Assembly (NCBI RefSeq): GCF_003058225.1
Contig: NZ_QBUG01000001.1
Location: 434,001 to 498,000, forward strand
Length of the DNA stretch: 64,000 bases
Direction: 5' to 3'
Source: Promicromonospora sp. AC04
Lineage (GTDB): Bacteria; Actinomycetota; Actinomycetes; Actinomycetales; Cellulomonadaceae
The translations under genes and the position numbers were made by a program. How positions within the stretch are numbered: the first letter of the stretch is position 1; every line of letters starts with the position of its first letter. Shown here piece after piece: positions 21,706 through 37,669 of the stretch. A model generated the notes under the pieces. It saw nothing but the letters and a program-made list of their open reading frames with translations. It did not search any database and was not told the DNA's origin.

Positions 21706-22854
21706 TCAGCGGCCGCCGGTCAGGTTCCGTGCGATCCGGCGGGCGTCCGCCGCCATCTCCAGGAACATGCCGCTGATCGGATTGGTGAAGCCCGTGAAGT
21801 ACAGGCCCGGGGCCGCCGGGCGGCCGTTCGTCGCGATCGGCTTGCCGTGGGCGCCGAGCACGCCCAGGTGTCCGACCACCGGTTCCAGCGCGCGGCGGTA
21901 GCCGGTCGCGGCGAGCACGACGTCGGGGGTGAGGCGGGCGCCGTCGGCCAGGACCACCTCGGCGCCGTCGAACCGCTCGATCGAGCCGACCACCTGGACG
22001 GCACCGGCCTGGACCGCGGCGACCAGGCCGACGTCCTGCACCGGGATGGCGCCCTGGGCGACACGGGTGGCCAGGCCCACCTCAGGGATCGGCAGCCCGA
22101 GGTGGGACAGGTCCGGGAAGCTGGCCTTGCGGACGGGGACGCTTATGGCGTCGACCAGGGCGGTCGGGAGGTGGCGCACCAGCAGGCCGGTGTACTGCGC
22201 GGCCCACGGGCCCTGGTTGCGCGGCACGATGTGCGGCGCCGTCCGGACCGCGAGGCGGACGCTCGCGGCGCCGTTCTCGGCGAGGTCCTGCGCGATCTCG
22301 GCGCCCGTGTTGCCCACGCCCACGACCAGCACGTCCTGTCCCGCGTACGGGGCCGGGTTGCGGTACCGGCTCGCGTGCACGACCTGTCCGATGAACCCGT
22401 CCAGGCCGGGCCAGTCCGGCAGGTGCGGCGTGTGGTTGTAGCCGGTGGCGACGACGACGGCGTCGGCCGTGCGCGTGCCCTCGCCGGTCGTGACCGTCCA
22501 GGTGCGGCCCTCGTTCTCGCGGTTCTCGGGGCCCTCGCGGCCCTCGCGATCGAGGCGCGTGACCTCGACGCCGTGCTCGATCCGCAGGTCGTGGTGGGCG
22601 GCGTACGCCTCGAGGTAGCGGACGACGTCGTCCCGGGCGACCCAGCGGCCGAACTCACGCGGGATCGCGAGGCCGGGCAGCTTCGAGAGGCCGCGGGTGG
22701 TGTGCAGGTGGAGGCGGTCGTAGTGGTTCCGCCAGGCGTTGCCGACGTGCTCCGACTTCTCGAGGACCGTGGCATCTACACCCCTGGACTTGAGGGCGGC
22801 TGCTGCGGCCAGGCCGGCGGGTCCGGCGCCGATGACGTACACGGTGGAAGCCAT
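21706..22854 (-). CDS. FAD-dependent flavin-containing monooxygenase-like oxidoreductase
   Basis: A 382-aa two-dinucleotide-fold flavoprotein. The FAD site GAGPAGLAAAAAL is at the N-terminus. The NADPH site is VVGVGNTGAEIAQDL, and ATGYNHTPHLP marks the FMO/YUCCA-like group. It probably hydroxylates a small lipophilic or sulfur/nitrogen substrate, which cannot be named. The start ATG at 22854 (MASTVYVIGAG) has no Shine-Dalgarno; an in-frame GTG at 22887 would add 11 residues. Leaderless translation from 22854 is plausible. A copy of repeat family R1 lies 52 bases upstream. Confidence 0.8.
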   Translation of the reverse strand: MASTVYVIGAGPAGLAAAAALKSRGVDATVLEKSEHVGNAWRNHYDRLHLHTTRGLSKLPGLAIPREFGRWVARDDVVRYLEAYAAHHDLRIEHGVEVTRLDREGREGPENRENEGRTWTVTTGEGTRTADAVVVATGYNHTPHLPDWPGLDGFIGQVVHASRYRNPAPYAGQDVLVVGVGNTGAEIAQDLAENGAASVRLAVRTAPHIVPRNQGPWAAQYTGLLVRHLPTALVDAISVPVRKASFPDLSHLGLPIPEVGLATRVAQGAIPVQDVGLVAAVQAGAVQVVGSIERFDGAEVVLADGARLTPDVVLAATGYRRALEPVVGHLGVLGAHGKPIATNGRPAAPGLYFTGFTNPISGMFLEMAADARRIARNLTGGR

Positions 22855-22905
22855 GAGGTGGAGCGTAGTGGGGTCGGCGGTGAGCACCTGTCTCTTTCGC
22901 CCGGC

Positions 22906-27350: not shown

Positions 27351-29939
27351 ATGACAGTTCCCCTGACCCTGCGCATGCCTTCGCGCGACGCCGACCAGCC
27401 GCCGGCCCCGGACCGTCCTGTCCTGGAGGCTGCCCTCGACCGGCTGGAGGAGGGCGGCGGCAGCGTGCCCGACCGGGCGGATGCCGAGGTGCTGCTGCAC
27501 GCTCGCGGCGCCGACCTGAACCGGCTCCTCGCCGTGGCGGGCGCAATGCGCGACGTCGGCCTGGCGGAGGCGGGCCGGCCCGGCGTCATCACGTACTCGC
27601 GCAAGGTGTTCGTCCCGCTGACGCACCTGTGCCAGGACCGGTGCCACTACTGCATCTTCGTCCAGACGCCGGGCAAGCTCGCCAAGGCCGGCATCTCGCC
27701 GTACATGGAGGCCGAGGAAGTGCTGGAGGTGGCGCGGCAGGGTGCGGCGCTGGGCTGCAAGGAGGCCCTGCTCACCCTCGGCGACCGCCCGGAGAACCGC
27801 TGGCCGGTCGCCCGCCAGTGGCTCGACGACCACGGCTACGCCTCGACGCTCGACTACGTGGGGCACATGGCCCGCCTGATCCTCGACGAGACGGGGCTGC
27901 TCCCCCACCTCAACCCCGGCGTGATGTCGTGGGCGGAGCTCCAGCGGCTCAAGCCCGTCGGCCCGTCGATGGGCATGATGCTGGAGACCACCTCGGAGCG
28001 GTTGTGGACCGAGAAGGGCCAGGCGCACTTCGGCTCCCCCGACAAGGACCCGGCCCTGCGGCTGCGCGTGATCGACGACGCCGGCCGCTCCCGTATCCCC
28101 TTCACCACCGGCGTGCTGCTCGGCATCGGCGAGAACTACGCCGAGCGTGTGGACTCGATCCTGGCGCTGCGCGACGCGCACGCCCGGGACGGGCACATCC
28201 AAGAGGTGATCGTGCAGAACTTCCGCGCCAAGTCGGCCACGGCGATGATGGGCGCCGAGGACCTGGAGACCCAGGAGTACGCGGCCGCCGTCGCCGTGAC
28301 CCGCGTGCTGCTCGGCCCGCGGATGCGGGTGCAGGCGCCGCCCAACCTGACCGACGCCGCTGAGCTCCAGCTCCTGGTCCGCGCCGGCATCGACGACTGG
28401 GGCGGCGTCAGCCCGCTCACCCCGGACCACGTCAACCCCGAGCGGCCCTGGCCGCACATCGAGGACCTGGCCCGGCTCACCGCCGAGGGCGGGTACACGC
28501 TGCGCGAGCGCCTCACCGCGCACCCGCACTACCTGCGCGAGGCGCGCGATGGGGCGGAGTGGCTCGACGACCGGCTGCGCGAGCGGGTCCTGGCCCTCGC
28601 GGACGACTACGGCCTGGCCCGCCACGACGCGCTCCTGGGCGAGTTCCCGGCCTCGGGTCCGAGCCCCGTCTCCGCCGTCGCCTCGTCCCGGGGCCCCACC
28701 TCCACCGTCGGCTCGTCCCGGGGCCCCGCCTCCACCGTCGGCTCGGTCCGTGGCCCCGCCTTAGGCCCCGGGCCGACGGCGGCCGTACGCCCAGGTCCGG
28801 AGCCGACGGCGGACGGGGCCACCCCGGTGCGCCACGACCCGGCCGGCCCGGTGCACGCGGGTCGCGCGACGTCGTCGGGCAGCCCGGTGCACCCGGGCCG
28901 CGCGACGTCGTCGGGCAGGCTGGCGGGGCTGCTCGCCGATGCCGACGCCGACCCCGCGGGCCTCGACGACGCCGCCTGGGTCGAGCTGCTGGGCGCGGAC
29001 GGCGCCGACCTCGAAGAGCTCGCGGCGCTCGCAAACCAGGTCCGCCACGAGCGGACCGGCGACCCGGTGACGTACGCGGTGAACCGGAACATCGACGCGT
29101 CGCTGGGCCTGCGGCCCGAGCAGGTGGCCGAGCTGGCGGCGGAGGCCGCCGCGCTGGGCGCGACCGAGGTGTGCGCGCAGGGGGCGCCGCCTGCGGCGTC
29201 CGGCGCCGACGGCTATCTCGACCTGGCCCGCGCGGTGAAGCGGGGCGGGCCGGGTCTGCACCTGCACGCGTTCCGCCCCGCCGAGCTGGCCGACGGCGCA
29301 GCCCGCGCGGGCCTGCCCCTGGCGGACTGGCTGGTGGAGCTGCGCGAGGCCGGCGTCGACACGGTGCCGGGCACGGGCGCGCGGATCCTGGACGACCGGA
29401 TCAGGGCAAGGCTCACCGGCGGGACGGATGTCCCCGCCGAGCGCTGGGTCGAGCTCGTCACCGCAGCCCATACCGCGGGCCTGCGGTCCACCGCGACGAT
29501 CGTGTACGGGCACGTCGAGTCGGCGCGCGACCAGGTGCGGCACCTGCGGGCGCTGGCCGGTGTGCAGGAGGCGACCGGCGGGTTCACGGAGCTGATCCCG
29601 ATGCCGTGGCTGCCGTCGGAGTCGCCGGTACTGGTGCCCGGCGCGCGCGTGACGACCCTGCGCGAGAGCCGCGCCCTGCACGCGGTGGCGCGGCTGATGC
29701 TCGCCGGGCGGATCGACCACGTGCAGGCCGCGTGGACCAAGCTCGGAATGCGCGGGGCGCAGCTTGTGCTCGCGGGCGGCGCCGACGACCTGGGCGGCGT
29801 GCTGCTCGACGGCGTCCTGGACCCGAACGCCGGGCCCGAACAGGGACGAGAGCTGTCCGTGGCGGACGTGACGCGGCTCGCCGCCGAGCTGGGCCGGCCG
29901 GTGCGGCAGCGCACGACTACATACGAGCAGGTGGGGTGA
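27351..29939 (+). CDS. fbiC: FbiC: fused CofG/CofH FO synthase with a CofH half lacking its iron-sulfur motif
   Basis: FbiC makes the deazaflavin FO of cofactor F420 from a ribityl-aminouracil and tyrosine using two radical-SAM domains. The CofG half (residues about 75-430) is complete, with C94-x3-C98-x2-C101 (CQDRCHYC) and HLNPGVMSW, PSMGMMLETTS and DWGGVSPLTPDHVNPERPWP. The CofH half (about 565-862) keeps VTYAVNRNI, ATEVC.QG, LREAGVDTVPGT, YGHVES and QRTTTYEQ. However, the segment after NRNI that normally carries CxxxCxxC (about 26 residues) is absent and the text jumps to DASLGLRPEQ. The halves are joined by a long repetitive linker (about 435-525). Total 862 aa. The CofH half is probably not a working radical-SAM enzyme. 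Confidence 0.85.
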   Translation: MTVPLTLRMPSRDADQPPAPDRPVLEAALDRLEEGGGSVPDRADAEVLLHARGADLNRLLAVAGAMRDVGLAEAGRPGVITYSRKVFVPLTHLCQDRCHYCIFVQTPGKLAKAGISPYMEAEEVLEVARQGAALGCKEALLTLGDRPENRWPVARQWLDDHGYASTLDYVGHMARLILDETGLLPHLNPGVMSWAELQRLKPVGPSMGMMLETTSERLWTEKGQAHFGSPDKDPALRLRVIDDAGRSRIPFTTGVLLGIGENYAERVDSILALRDAHARDGHIQEVIVQNFRAKSATAMMGAEDLETQEYAAAVAVTRVLLGPRMRVQAPPNLTDAAELQLLVRAGIDDWGGVSPLTPDHVNPERPWPHIEDLARLTAEGGYTLRERLTAHPHYLREARDGAEWLDDRLRERVLALADDYGLARHDALLGEFPASGPSPVSAVASSRGPTSTVGSSRGPASTVGSVRGPALGPGPTAAVRPGPEPTADGATPVRHDPAGPVHAGRATSSGSPVHPGRATSSGRLAGLLADADADPAGLDDAAWVELLGADGADLEELAALANQVRHERTGDPVTYAVNRNIDASLGLRPEQVAELAAEAAALGATEVCAQGAPPAASGADGYLDLARAVKRGGPGLHLHAFRPAELADGAARAGLPLADWLVELREAGVDTVPGTGARILDDRIRARLTGGTDVPAERWVELVTAAHTAGLRSTATIVYGHVESARDQVRHLRALAGVQEATGGFTELIPMPWLPSESPVLVPGARVTTLRESRALHAVARLMLAGRIDHVQAAWTKLGMRGAQLVLAGGADDLGGVLLDGVLDPNAGPEQGRELSVADVTRLAAELGRPVRQRTTTYEQVG

Positions 29940-30009: not shown

Positions 30010-31482
30010 GTGGCCACGGACATGAACCCGAACATGAACACCGACGTAGACGTAGCGGTAGTGGGCGCGGGCCTCGCCGGGATAGGGCTCGGCGCCCGGC
30101 TGCGGCGCGCCGGGCGCACCGGCTTCAAGATCCTGGAGCGGGCCGACGACGTCGGCGGCACCTGGCGCGACAACGTCTACCCGGGCGTGGCGTGCGACAT
30201 CCCGAGCGCCCTGTACTCGTACTCGTTCCTGCCGCAGCCCGCCTGGTCACGGGTGTTCGCGCCGGGCGCCGAGATCCACCAGTACGTCCGGGATGTCGCG
30301 CGGTCCGAGGGGCTGGCCCCGCACCTGCGATTCGGCACCGAGCTCACCGGCGCGCGATGGAACGAGAACGAGGCCGCGTGGCACCTGACGACGTCCCGCG
30401 GGCCGCTGACCTCGCGGGTGCTGGTCACCGCCGTCGGCCGGCTCAGCGAGCCCCGCGTGCCCGAGATACCGGGGCTCGGCACGTTCCCGGGCCGCGTGTT
30501 CCACTCCGTGCGATGGGACCGGGACCTGCCCGCGGGCCTGCGGGTCGGCGTGGTCGGGACCGGCGCGAGCGCCGTCCAGCTCGTGCCGGAGGTGGCCCGG
30601 CGGGCGGCGTCCGTCGTCGTGCTGCAGCGCACGCCGCCGTGGGTGCTGCCACGCGGCGACCGGGCCTACGCGCCCGGCGAGGCCCAGCCCGACCGCGCCG
30701 CGCTCGCGGAGGAGGCGGACCGGCTGTTCGACGCGCGGGTGGCCGGCACGGCCGCGGAGGCCGCGCTGCGGGAGCGCGCGGAGGCTCACCTGCGAGCCCA
30801 GGTGCCGGACCCGGCGCTGCGGGCGGTGCTCACCCCGGACTACGCGGTGGGCTGCAAGCGTGCGCTGTTCAGCGACGACTGGTACCCGACGCTGCAGCAG
30901 CCGCACGTCACGCTCGAGCCGAGCGCCCCGGTCGCTGTCGAGGGATCGGTGCTGGTCGCGGCGTCGGGCGCCCGGTACGAGGTGGACGTGCTGGTGCTGG
31001 CCACGGGGTTCGAGACCACCCGCCCGCCGTTCGCCCACCTCGTGACGGGCCGCGGCGGGCAGACGCTCGCCGAGCACTGGGCCGACGGCATGACCAGCCA
31101 CGCCTCCACGGTCGTGCACGGCTTCCCGAACCTGTTCGTGCTGGACGGCCCCAACGCCGGTCTCGGCCATCACTCGGCCCTTGAGGTGATCGAGGCGCAG
31201 GTCGGCTACGTGCTCGGCGCGCTCGACCACCTCGACGCGGACGGCGGGCCCCTGGAGGTGTCCGCGGAGGCGGAGGCCGCGTACACGCGGGAGGTGGACC
31301 GGCGCGCGGCGGGGACGGTGTGGCTGCGCGGCGGGTGCCGGAGCTGGTACGTGGACGAACGCTCGGGCCGCCTCACGCTCCTGTGGCCCGGGCGGGCGGC
31401 GGAGTACCGCGAGCGCTTCGCCGTCTTCGACCCCACCCCGTTCGCCCCGGACGACTGCGCCGTGGGCGCCCCGCGAAGATGA
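30010..31482 (+). CDS. FAD/NADPH monooxygenase of the Baeyer-Villiger / FMO type
   Basis: A 490-aa class B flavoprotein monooxygenase. FAD motif VVGAGLAGIGLGARL is near the N-terminus, followed by DDVGGTWRDNVYPGVACDIPS, typical of this group. The BVMO fingerprint F-x-G-x3-H-x3-W-D reads FPGRVFHSVRWD. NADPH motif VVGTGASAVQLVPEV follows directly. It probably oxygenates ketones or related lipophilic compounds; the substrate is unknown. GTG 30010 is used as start; ATG codons at 30022 or 30034 are alternatives, and none has a strong ribosome site. It lies 70 bases after fbiC. Its stop codon lies within the arm of a long hairpin. Confidence 0.82.
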   Translation: MATDMNPNMNTDVDVAVVGAGLAGIGLGARLRRAGRTGFKILERADDVGGTWRDNVYPGVACDIPSALYSYSFLPQPAWSRVFAPGAEIHQYVRDVARSEGLAPHLRFGTELTGARWNENEAAWHLTTSRGPLTSRVLVTAVGRLSEPRVPEIPGLGTFPGRVFHSVRWDRDLPAGLRVGVVGTGASAVQLVPEVARRAASVVVLQRTPPWVLPRGDRAYAPGEAQPDRAALAEEADRLFDARVAGTAAEAALRERAEAHLRAQVPDPALRAVLTPDYAVGCKRALFSDDWYPTLQQPHVTLEPSAPVAVEGSVLVAASGARYEVDVLVLATGFETTRPPFAHLVTGRGGQTLAEHWADGMTSHASTVVHGFPNLFVLDGPNAGLGHHSALEVIEAQVGYVLGALDHLDADGGPLEVSAEAEAAYTREVDRRAAGTVWLRGGCRSWYVDERSGRLTLLWPGRAAEYRERFAVFDPTPFAPDDCAVGAPRR

Positions 31483-35954: not shown

Positions 35955-36110
35955 GTGAAACACCGCCCTTCTCGGGCGTCCATGGTTCAGGCCGCGGGTG
36001 CGGTCTGATTGGTTCCCACGTCATCCAGTCCCTTGCCACCGAGACGCGGGGCGTCAGGGTGGGTGGGGGTGTCCTGTCGGTGGGCGTTCTTGACGGGGCC
36101 GGCTGCTTGA
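35955..36110 (-). ncRNA. Predicted omega RNA (reRNA) at the tnpB 3' end
   Basis: By analogy with characterised TnpB systems, the guide RNA scaffold overlaps the end of tnpB and continues to the element right end, with the guide read from flanking DNA. Here the scaffold would end in the hairpin at 35964-35978 plus TTTCAC (35955-35960). The guide would be the minus strand from 35954 downward (AAGCCATCCGACTTC...). The 5' boundary is arbitrary. Confidence 0.35.
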
Positions 36111-37552
36111 CGGTCCCCGACCCGGGCAGCACCACGCCCCGCAACGCCTGTGTCTTCGGCGGTAGGGGTGTGGTTCTCGGCCCAGGCGGCGAGATTGACG
36201 GCGGCATTCAGATCCCGGTCCATCACATGCCCGCACGACCAGCACTCGAAGACGCGGTCCTTGAGGGTCAGGTCCTTGCGCAGGGTGCCGCAGGCAGAGC
36301 AGGTCTTGGACGACGGGTACCACCGGTCCGCGAGCAGGACCTGCCCGTGGCGCCAGGCCTGCTTGTAGGTGATCTGCCGAGCGAGCTCGCCCCACGCAGC
36401 ATCCGAGATGGCGCGCGACAGCTTGCGGTTCCTTGTCATGCCGGTGATGTTCAGGTCTTCCAGGACCAGCCGGGCGTGGTTCTTGACCAACTGGTTGGAC
36501 ACCTGATGCAGCACATGGCGACGACGGTCACGGATCCGGGCATGTTGCCGTCCCAGACGCACGACAGCCTTCTTGCGGTTCTTCGATCCCTTCTTCTTGC
36601 GGGACACCGCCTTGGACAGGCGACGCAGACGTGGCAGCCCGCGCCGGAAGGCGCGCTGGTTGGTGACCCGCAGGACCTCGACACCGTCGCGGGTGCCGGC
36701 GACGGCCAGGACGTGCAGACCACGATCTACCCCCACCCAACCCTTCCCGCCGTGCCGGGTGGGCTGGGTGCGGCCATCCCTGATCTCTGCCTCGTCGGTC
36801 TCGACGGGTTGGGGCGTGTGCCGCGCTTCGGGATGTTGGTGTGCGGGGTGCAGGTCGGCGGCCTCGACGGTGATGGAGATCCACCACCGGTTCGCACCCC
36901 GGGACACCGTCACCGAGAGGATCCGGGCCCGGCCGGTGGCGATCATTCGACGCAACCGCCGGGTGCATTCCCGCATGCGCAGGACACCGATCTTCGGCAG
37001 GCGCACCGACCGGAGACGATCCCCGTCCCCGAGGCGAATGCTGGCGCGCCCACTGTTGGTCTTGTTCCGGATCCGGAACGACCCACCCGTCGGGTTCTTC
37101 CTCTTGAACCGTGGGGACCCGACCTTCGGTCCCTTCCGGGCACCGGTGCGGGAGTCGGTGGACGCCTTCAGCCCGCGACCCAGGTCCACGCAGGCTTCCT
37201 CGAACACCTGCGCCAGCACCCGGTCCTGCCAGACCAGACCCGTCACCTCCACCCTGGCCGTCCCGGTCGGGTCGACGAGGAACCGGCGCCCGGCCGCCTC
37301 CGACCTCTTCCAGGCGTTGAACGCGTTGATCAGATCGAACCCCGTCCACGGCACGCGAACAGCACCAGAGACGTCACCGACCTCGGGTAGCGAGTTCGCG
37401 CTCTGCCCACGGCGGGCAGCCGTACGCGCGTCCTTGTGCAGGCGCAGGGCCTGGTTGAACGCGAACCTTGCCGCGCCCACGTGCCGGGACAGCACACGTT
37501 CCTGCTCGACCGACGGGTCGAGGCAGAACCGGAACGACGTGTGCCTGGGCAT
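35987..37552 (-). CDS. tnpB: RNA-guided endonuclease TnpB family protein
   Basis: A 521-aa OrfB/TnpB protein with an apparently intact nuclease. The RuvC residues are D276 (GWVGVDRGLHVLAV), E365 (LVLEDLNITGM) and the DRDLNAAVN aspartate (near 447). The zinc ribbon is CSAC (418-421) and CWSC (437-440). An unstructured C-terminal tail rich in Ala/Pro/Asp overlaps the predicted guide RNA. TnpB cleaves DNA next to a short motif using the element's own RNA, which helps the element persist. Start ATG 37552 (MPRHTSFRFCLDPSVEQ) matches family N-termini; ATG 37585 is possible. At 521 aa it is longer than most (about 400). Confidence 0.88.
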   Translation of the reverse strand: MPRHTSFRFCLDPSVEQERVLSRHVGAARFAFNQALRLHKDARTAARRGQSANSLPEVGDVSGAVRVPWTGFDLINAFNAWKRSEAAGRRFLVDPTGTARVEVTGLVWQDRVLAQVFEEACVDLGRGLKASTDSRTGARKGPKVGSPRFKRKNPTGGSFRIRNKTNSGRASIRLGDGDRLRSVRLPKIGVLRMRECTRRLRRMIATGRARILSVTVSRGANRWWISITVEAADLHPAHQHPEARHTPQPVETDEAEIRDGRTQPTRHGGKGWVGVDRGLHVLAVAGTRDGVEVLRVTNQRAFRRGLPRLRRLSKAVSRKKKGSKNRKKAVVRLGRQHARIRDRRRHVLHQVSNQLVKNHARLVLEDLNITGMTRNRKLSRAISDAAWGELARQITYKQAWRHGQVLLADRWYPSSKTCSACGTLRKDLTLKDRVFECWSCGHVMDRDLNAAVNLAAWAENHTPTAEDTGVAGRGAARVGDRQAAGPVKNAHRQDTPTHPDAPRLGGKGLDDVGTNQTAPAA

Positions 37553-37669
37553 GCGGGCCATCCTGCCATCCACCCACCACGACATCGCACACCTGTTCTA
37601 CGTCTGGGAAGAACCCGCCACCCACCACCGAACCACAACCAATTCCGAAACACGCCGTAGGCTCACGCC

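Follow-up and report, generated by a model that had tools for sequence, protein, structure and literature searches.

The FbiC-like fusion and the neighboring monooxygenase gene

We analyzed a stretch of 64,000 nucleotides from Promicromonospora sp. AC04 (contig NZ_QBUG01000001.1, positions 434,001 to 498,000), called the window throughout this text. It carries an FbiC-like gene, which encodes a CofG half fused to a CofH half, and, 70 bases further on the same strand, a gene for a type I Baeyer-Villiger-type monooxygenase (BVMO) (Table 1). A sequence-only reading of the window had claimed that the CofH half lost the CxxxCxxC motif of radical S-adenosylmethionine (SAM) enzymes, while the CofG half kept it. 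Translation confirmed both points. No CxxxCxxC was present in the translated CofH half or in its alignment with the CofH profile TIGR03551, which covered model positions 3-45 and 69-345 and skipped about 23 positions (~46-68). We refer to a CofH half of this kind as dCofH. Our analysis suggests that the two genes probably form an FO-synthase module, whose first half-reaction would proceed without radical SAM chemistry.

The fusion scored 474 bits with the CofG model TIGR03550 (cut-off 213.35), 346.5 bits with the CofH model TIGR03551 (cut-off 374.1) and 1015.5 bits with the FbiC model NF006687, just below the cut-off of 1018. The CofH_C region was found (PF19288, 33.9 against a cut-off of 27). 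The protein therefore resembles FbiC and CofG-CofH in the order of the fusion, in the CofG half with its motif, in the CofH-type barrel with the CofH_C region and in its pathway company (CofD, CofE and often F420-dependent glucose-6-phosphate dehydrogenase, FGD). It differs from FbiC, which has two radical-SAM centers, in carrying one such motif only, in scores below the CofH and FbiC cut-offs, in fixed changes and in the link to a BVMO. Because two defining features of the radical-SAM enzyme CofH (EC 2.5.1.147), its profile score and its cysteine motif, were not found, we classified the module as a variant of FO synthase and not as CofH.

The AlphaFold2 model of the dCofH domain was a confident barrel (mean pLDDT 94.4). 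Its best match in the PDB was MqnE (6xig_A, E = 1.2e-23, TMq = 0.85). MqnE (aminofutalosine synthase, PDB 6xi9/6xig), a radical-SAM enzyme that takes part in menaquinone synthesis, is the closest solved structure to the dCofH fold, with 27% identity; in contrast to MqnE, dCofH has no cluster motif.

The start of the BVMO gene was assigned to a GTG, and an ATG at 30022 is an alternative. The closest solved relatives of its product are steroid, cyclohexanone and phenylacetone monooxygenases. The protein has the features of a type I BVMO, namely the fingerprint (in BVMOs FxGxxxHxxxW[P/D]), two Rossmann motifs and a conserved Arg in the sequence GCKR, which we take to be equivalent to the catalytic Arg of BVMOs. 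It shares the fingerprint, the FAD and NADPH motifs and the Arg with steroid monooxygenase (4ap3) and phenylacetone monooxygenase (1w4x), of which the latter inserts oxygen adjacent to a benzyl carbon. The window BVMO is shorter (about 490 against about 540-550 residues) and, unlike these enzymes, is linked to CofG/dCofH.

Table 1. Positions of the fusion gene, the BVMO gene and their motifs in the window
Feature	Position	Strand	Remarks
FbiC-like fusion, CofG half and cysteine-less CofH half (dCofH)	27351..29939	+	single open frame, 862 residues
CofG half, radical-SAM motif intact	27582..28625	+	residues 78-425; TIGR03550 well over cut-off
CQDRCHYC, [4Fe-4S]/SAM motif in CofG half	27630..27653	+	residues 94-101
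Low-complexity Gly/Ser/Pro-rich linker and beginning of CofH half	28626..28979	+	from translation
dCofH domain, MqnE/CofH-type barrel without cluster loop	28980..29936	+	residues 544-862
NRNIDA junction, site of missing CxxxCxxC and loop	29082..29099	+	residues 578-583; sequence continues NRNIDASLGL
HAFRP with R642	29265..29279	+	Arg in 73/73 dCofH rows; Ser in 98% of 63 canonical CofH rows
LLDGVLDP with G821 (canonical Glu) and P825 (canonical Arg)	29802..29825	+	alignment of dCofH and canonical rows
Type I Baeyer-Villiger-type monooxygenase	30010..31482	+	490 residues if start is GTG at 30010; PF00743, FMO-like
BVMO fingerprint, FPGRVFHSVRWD	30484..30519	+	fits FxGxxxHxxxW[P/D]
GCKR with conserved Arg	30850..30861	+	alignment of linked BVMOs

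Relatives of the fusion and linkage of dCofH to the BVMO

We collected relatives of the window protein from bacterial genomes and kept 80 of 122. The CofH half was cysteine-less, as in the window, in 42 of these loci and canonical in 32; one further canonical locus lay at a contig end (L046). Two loci (L058, L071) ended at a contig edge in or after CofG and were assigned to neither kind, and the last three (L073, L074, L079) had CofG only. According to the record titles, genera with the cysteine-less kind include Promicromonospora, Subtercola, Agreia, Herbiconiux, Humibacter, Frondihabitans, Arthrobacter, Pseudarthrobacter, Cellulomonas, Nocardioides and Amnibacterium. The cassette was also seen on contigs of two records labelled Acidobacteria (L049, L076), where misbinning and transfer are both possible.

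The sequence-only reading had named assembly collapse at the junction as the finding that would overturn it. From the window as a single view, an assembly or sequencing artefact at 29080-29110 could be suspected; many assemblies obtained independently, including several single-contig genomes, show the same architecture, which refutes a collapse, and we give an artefact practically no chance.

A BVMO homologue was located downstream of dCofH, on the same strand, in 76/76 fetched loci. The gap was at most 400 bases in 62 loci and 509-983 bases in 13; for L012, where dCofH is partly masked, the distance was projected (1841 bases). The wider gaps include those of Agreia, in which the BVMO has an N-terminal extension, and of L059, which has a hydrolase gene in the gap. 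The extension in Agreia (L061-L064) resembles a hydrolase by eye, and in L063 there was no Pfam match to a hydrolase. The separate Abhydrolase genes, between the fusion and the BVMO gene in L059 and upstream in L047, might act on an ester produced by the BVMO.

No BVMO match at E 1e-10 was obtained in the 33 canonical FbiC loci (L046 included). At least 1.5 kb of downstream sequence was available for 31 of them; L041 and L046 are uninformative in this respect, because their downstream stretches are too short (204 and 2 bases, respectively). A conserved third partner was considered and rejected, as clustering of neighboring genes gave CofGH and the BVMO as the widely shared clusters. The same clustering, based on crude gene calls with several BVMO frames miscalled, recorded CofD, CofE and LLM genes in a part of the loci, dCofH and canonical alike.

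The FxGxxxHxxxW pattern was present in 43/43 BVMOs of the first set, which comprised 42 loci besides the window, and the BVMO of L116 was without the F.G part of the fingerprint. In an alignment of 51 linked BVMOs, conservation was at least 95% for GCKR and for the fingerprint residues F, G, H and W. GGTWxDNxYPG was conserved to the same degree, with a count biased for GGTW, as L056 had been excluded for lacking it.

dCofH as an old and conserved family

A maximum-likelihood tree was built from 74 rows, and one branch (100/100) divided it into the 32 canonical rows and the 42 rows with dCofH (window, 39 loci, L116 and L117). This branch was present in all 200 bootstrap trees with one change, and the program gave a warning of long branches. 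Masked, partial or frameshifted sequences (L012, L046, L051, L078) were left out. The loop that bridges the site of the lost motif varied in length among relatives. The loss of the motif is old, because the loop length varies, other positions changed too and all cysteine-less rows fall into a single clade. The sequence-only reading spoke of a clean internal loss; the loss is in frame, as it stated, but for the same reasons it is not a fresh, clean deletion.

We compared the window with eight relatives and obtained dN/dS of 0.13-0.26 for dCofH, 0.09-0.20 for CofG and 0.17-0.41 for the BVMO. Judged by these ratios, dCofH is under purifying selection. It could be supposed that F420 synthesis in these bacteria is lost or fading, that the CofH half is decaying and that any use of F420 is fed by FO from neighbors; the loss of a motif essential to known CofH enzymes and a metagenome-assembled genome without cofD and cofE would agree with this. 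The low ratios, the single clade over many genera, the BVMO linked in every fetched locus and the retained CofG motif speak against it. We rejected decay of the CofH half on the ratios and the single clade, and a fading pathway has in our opinion very little chance.

A later alignment contained 136 CofH halves (L191 left out), and CxxxCxxC was missing in 73 of them. The rows were sorted into 73 dCofH and 63 canonical ones by this motif itself, and other positions played no part in the sorting. At 47 positions, identity was at least 95% in both families, which suggests, from the alignment, that dCofH has kept the substrate site. Two residues were switched completely in dCofH (S642R and E821G) and a third in 97% (R825P).

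A non-catalytic role for the CofH half had been offered as one option by the sequence-only reading. dCofH could serve as a scaffold or substrate carrier, with the BVMO and CofG doing all FO chemistry, and the lost cluster site of a protein that is still kept beside the BVMO in all fetched loci is what would be expected. This is a variant of the two-gene module that we favor, but the 47 positions suggest a kept substrate site, and we regard a mere scaffold as improbable. A changed role does fit our results; the BVMO partner, missed at that time, points to a changed mechanism and not to a loss of catalysis.

The F420 pathway in genomes with dCofH

The genome of the window strain (6.85 Mb, 99.67% complete) contained no second CofH in a profile search. 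We extended the search to a panel of 49 genomes, composed of this genome, 44 further dCofH-type genomes and 4 canonical controls. CofH above cut-off was found in 0/45 dCofH-type genomes and only in the 4 controls, and one dCofH-type genome (G007, which holds the masked L012) had no CofH-family match at all. The earlier suggestion that another CofH exists was thus not borne out.

CofD was above cut-off in 43/45 dCofH-type genomes, and CofE likewise in 43/45. Both were found in the window strain (cofD at C4:362517-363455, cofE at C1:419825-420535). FGD exceeded its cut-off in 31/45, the window strain included, and stood beside the cassette in L033, L056 and L067. With high confidence we predict that the F420 pathway is active in dCofH carriers.

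Surveys of a class and an order

Two surveys were performed on genomes picked independently of their likeness to the window. In the class survey, a CofH-family match (E 1e-55) was present in 164/246 genomes, and 157 of these exceeded the CofH cut-off. The seven under the cut-off were the genome of the window strain and six others with dCofH lacking CxxxCxxC and a BVMO downstream. In the order survey, 58/346 genomes had a CofH-family match (E 1e-50), one each, and 28 were above the cut-off. Of the 30 remaining, 29 (again including the window strain) had dCofH with a downstream BVMO; the last one (G302) was a contig-end fragment of canonical type and was set aside.

No BVMO was found in the 28 canonical loci of the order survey, in about 4 kb each, which extended about 1.5 kb past the CofH match. 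The difference in BVMO linkage (29/29 against 0/28) gave p = 7e-17 in Fisher's test, although the independence that the test assumes does not hold for related genomes. Among the 25 newly fetched order loci, 23 had CofG within the sequence retrieved. CofG was not found in the fetched stretches of L175 and L191; in L191 dCofH is split over two frames.

Loci in which the CofH half is lost or exchanged

The Actinoplanes loci L073, L074 and L079 have surroundings syntenic with those of the canonical L031, but their fbiC product stops after CofG. This CofG shares 88-89% identity with its best canonical counterpart from Actinoplanes. Of the three genomes, those of L073 and L074 were searched, and both carry a dCofH-BVMO pair on another contig.

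In genome G170, dCofH, BVMO and CofG are three genes at the place where G160 and G249, of the same genus, have canonical fbiC. The flanks of the locus (genes up to mshB, TIGR03445, and a small gene after) match those of G160 and G249, and the CofG is 75% identical to the N-terminal half of G160 FbiC. Because flanks and CofG match the same-genus canonical loci, sequence comparison indicates that at this locus CofG is retained and only the CofH half is swapped. The three genes are separate also in L081 and L085.

The module could make a chemically different deazaflavin, with another donor or an added oxygen, and CofG, CofD and CofE would then process a modified FO. An oxygenase beside a stripped radical enzyme and the fixed changes in dCofH would suit such a product, which need not be identical to FO. 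CofD and CofE, as well as FGD in 31 of the 45 genomes, exceed curated cut-offs for normal F420 enzymes, however, and in the CofG-only loci a nearly unchanged canonical CofG is paired with the module, which suggests the same intermediate. We consider a different deazaflavin unlikely, and it seems likely to us that dCofH and the BVMO together take the place of radical-SAM CofH in making the usual one.

Proposed chemistry and points that weigh against it

We propose that the BVMO and dCofH would together attach the 4-hydroxybenzyl group to C5 of 5-amino-6-ribitylaminouracil, which is the job of CofH, and that the intact radical-SAM CofG half would then close the ring to give FO for F420. How the first step might proceed is more tentative, and an oxygen-dependent route through a quinone methide, with the BVMO substrate and ionic mechanism given here, has in our view somewhat less than an even chance. 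The BVMO would act on a carbonyl compound derived from tyrosine, for example 4-hydroxyphenylpyruvate or 4-hydroxyphenylacetaldehyde, and insert oxygen adjacent to its benzyl carbon. The resulting 4-hydroxybenzyl ester would shed its acyl group and collapse to p-quinone methide, as is known from general chemistry for such esters. dCofH would position the quinone methide next to ribitylaminouracil, and the C-C bond would be formed by an ionic and not a radical reaction. As a guess, R642 of dCofH might bind the acid part of the donor. By comparison, radical CofH is described in PMC8498797 as generating a p-hydroxybenzyl radical from tyrosine and adding it to ribitylaminouracil. Phenylacetone monooxygenase converts phenylacetones to benzyl-type acetate esters, according to PMC10840651, and this is a precedent for the proposed BVMO step.

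Several observations weigh against our proposal. The mirror-tree correlation between dCofH and the BVMO was 0.87 (41 loci), barely above that between dCofH and CofG (0.825). An alpha-keto acid would be an unusual substrate for Baeyer-Villiger oxidation. An alpha/beta hydrolase is found in a few dCofH loci, is not needed by the scheme and has no firm role. In the panel, 14/45 dCofH-type genomes were without FGD above cut-off; the metagenome-assembled genome G030 showed no cofD and no cofE, and draft G007 had a broken CofD and G019 a split CofE, with the copies under cut-off. G043 and G044 had extra sub-cut-off CofH-family matches, which we took, without a test, for MqnE/MqnC of the menaquinone pathway.

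To the same side belongs the wider distribution of the BVMO. A homologue (E 1e-60) was present in 116/246 class-survey genomes, many of them with canonical FbiC. The top nine (at least 498 bits) were the six dCofH genomes, G114, G284 and G096. In G284 and G096 (L130, L131), which have canonical FbiC, the BVMO is 53% identical to that of the window and has no dCofH beside it; therefore this group of enzymes can have other work, and the idea that the BVMO is exclusive to dCofH genomes had to be given up. dCofH was absent also from the loci of the next two BVMO ranks (L134, L135). The BVMO gene of G284 and G096 adjoins genes for a PcaD-like hydrolase and an LLM-family oxidoreductase.

Genome G114 contains both canonical FbiC and a dCofH-BVMO cassette (L132, L133). 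The exclusion of canonical FbiC by dCofH is thus not absolute, and we dropped strict mutual exclusion. An in-frame TGA in the canonical fbiC of G114 turned out to be its ordinary stop codon, located where the protein normally ends. It is possible that G114 is an intermediate of replacement. The same genome could be read in favor of a non-homologous CofH elsewhere, to which profile searches would be blind, with the dCofH-BVMO pair doing something else with F420, such as tailoring. In two Actinoplanes genomes and in G170, however, fbiC has lost or exchanged its CofH half and the pair is present, and this alternative appears very improbable.

If the two-gene module acts as proposed, its route would be a second, so far undescribed, way to F420 in many soil bacteria; 29 of the 58 CofH-family-bearing genomes sampled in one order lack the second radical-SAM motif. 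A literature search, with most subscription journals outside its reach, returned no cysteine-less CofH and no BVMO in FO synthesis, which is not proof of absence. Neither is mentioned in the accessible parts of PMC8498797, PMC10840651, PMC3288000, PMC8571402 and PMC8210684. The broadest version of the proposal, which may well be wrong but is not far from balanced, is that nature has a second route to the deazaflavin core. Baeyer-Villiger chemistry with oxygen and NADPH would provide a quinone-methide donor, the cluster-stripped barrel would be an ionic C-benzyl transferase, and the pair would have been passed on by horizontal transfer and would have ousted radical CofH on several occasions, so that a step sensitive to oxygen became one that uses it. 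In that case flavin-oxygen chemistry would be able to take over from a radical-SAM step without a change of scaffold. Many FbiC annotations would then be corrected, and the oxygen-using half-step could serve F420 production in aerobic hosts.

Other genes in the window

A second FMO-like gene is located at 21706-22887 on the minus strand; it resembles ArsO and scores well below the ArsO family cut-off. A gene for a TnpB-like protein, for which the IS607 type scored best (35987-37585, minus strand), lies beside a gene for a protein with a beta-lactamase fold (PF00144; 33647-35983, minus strand).

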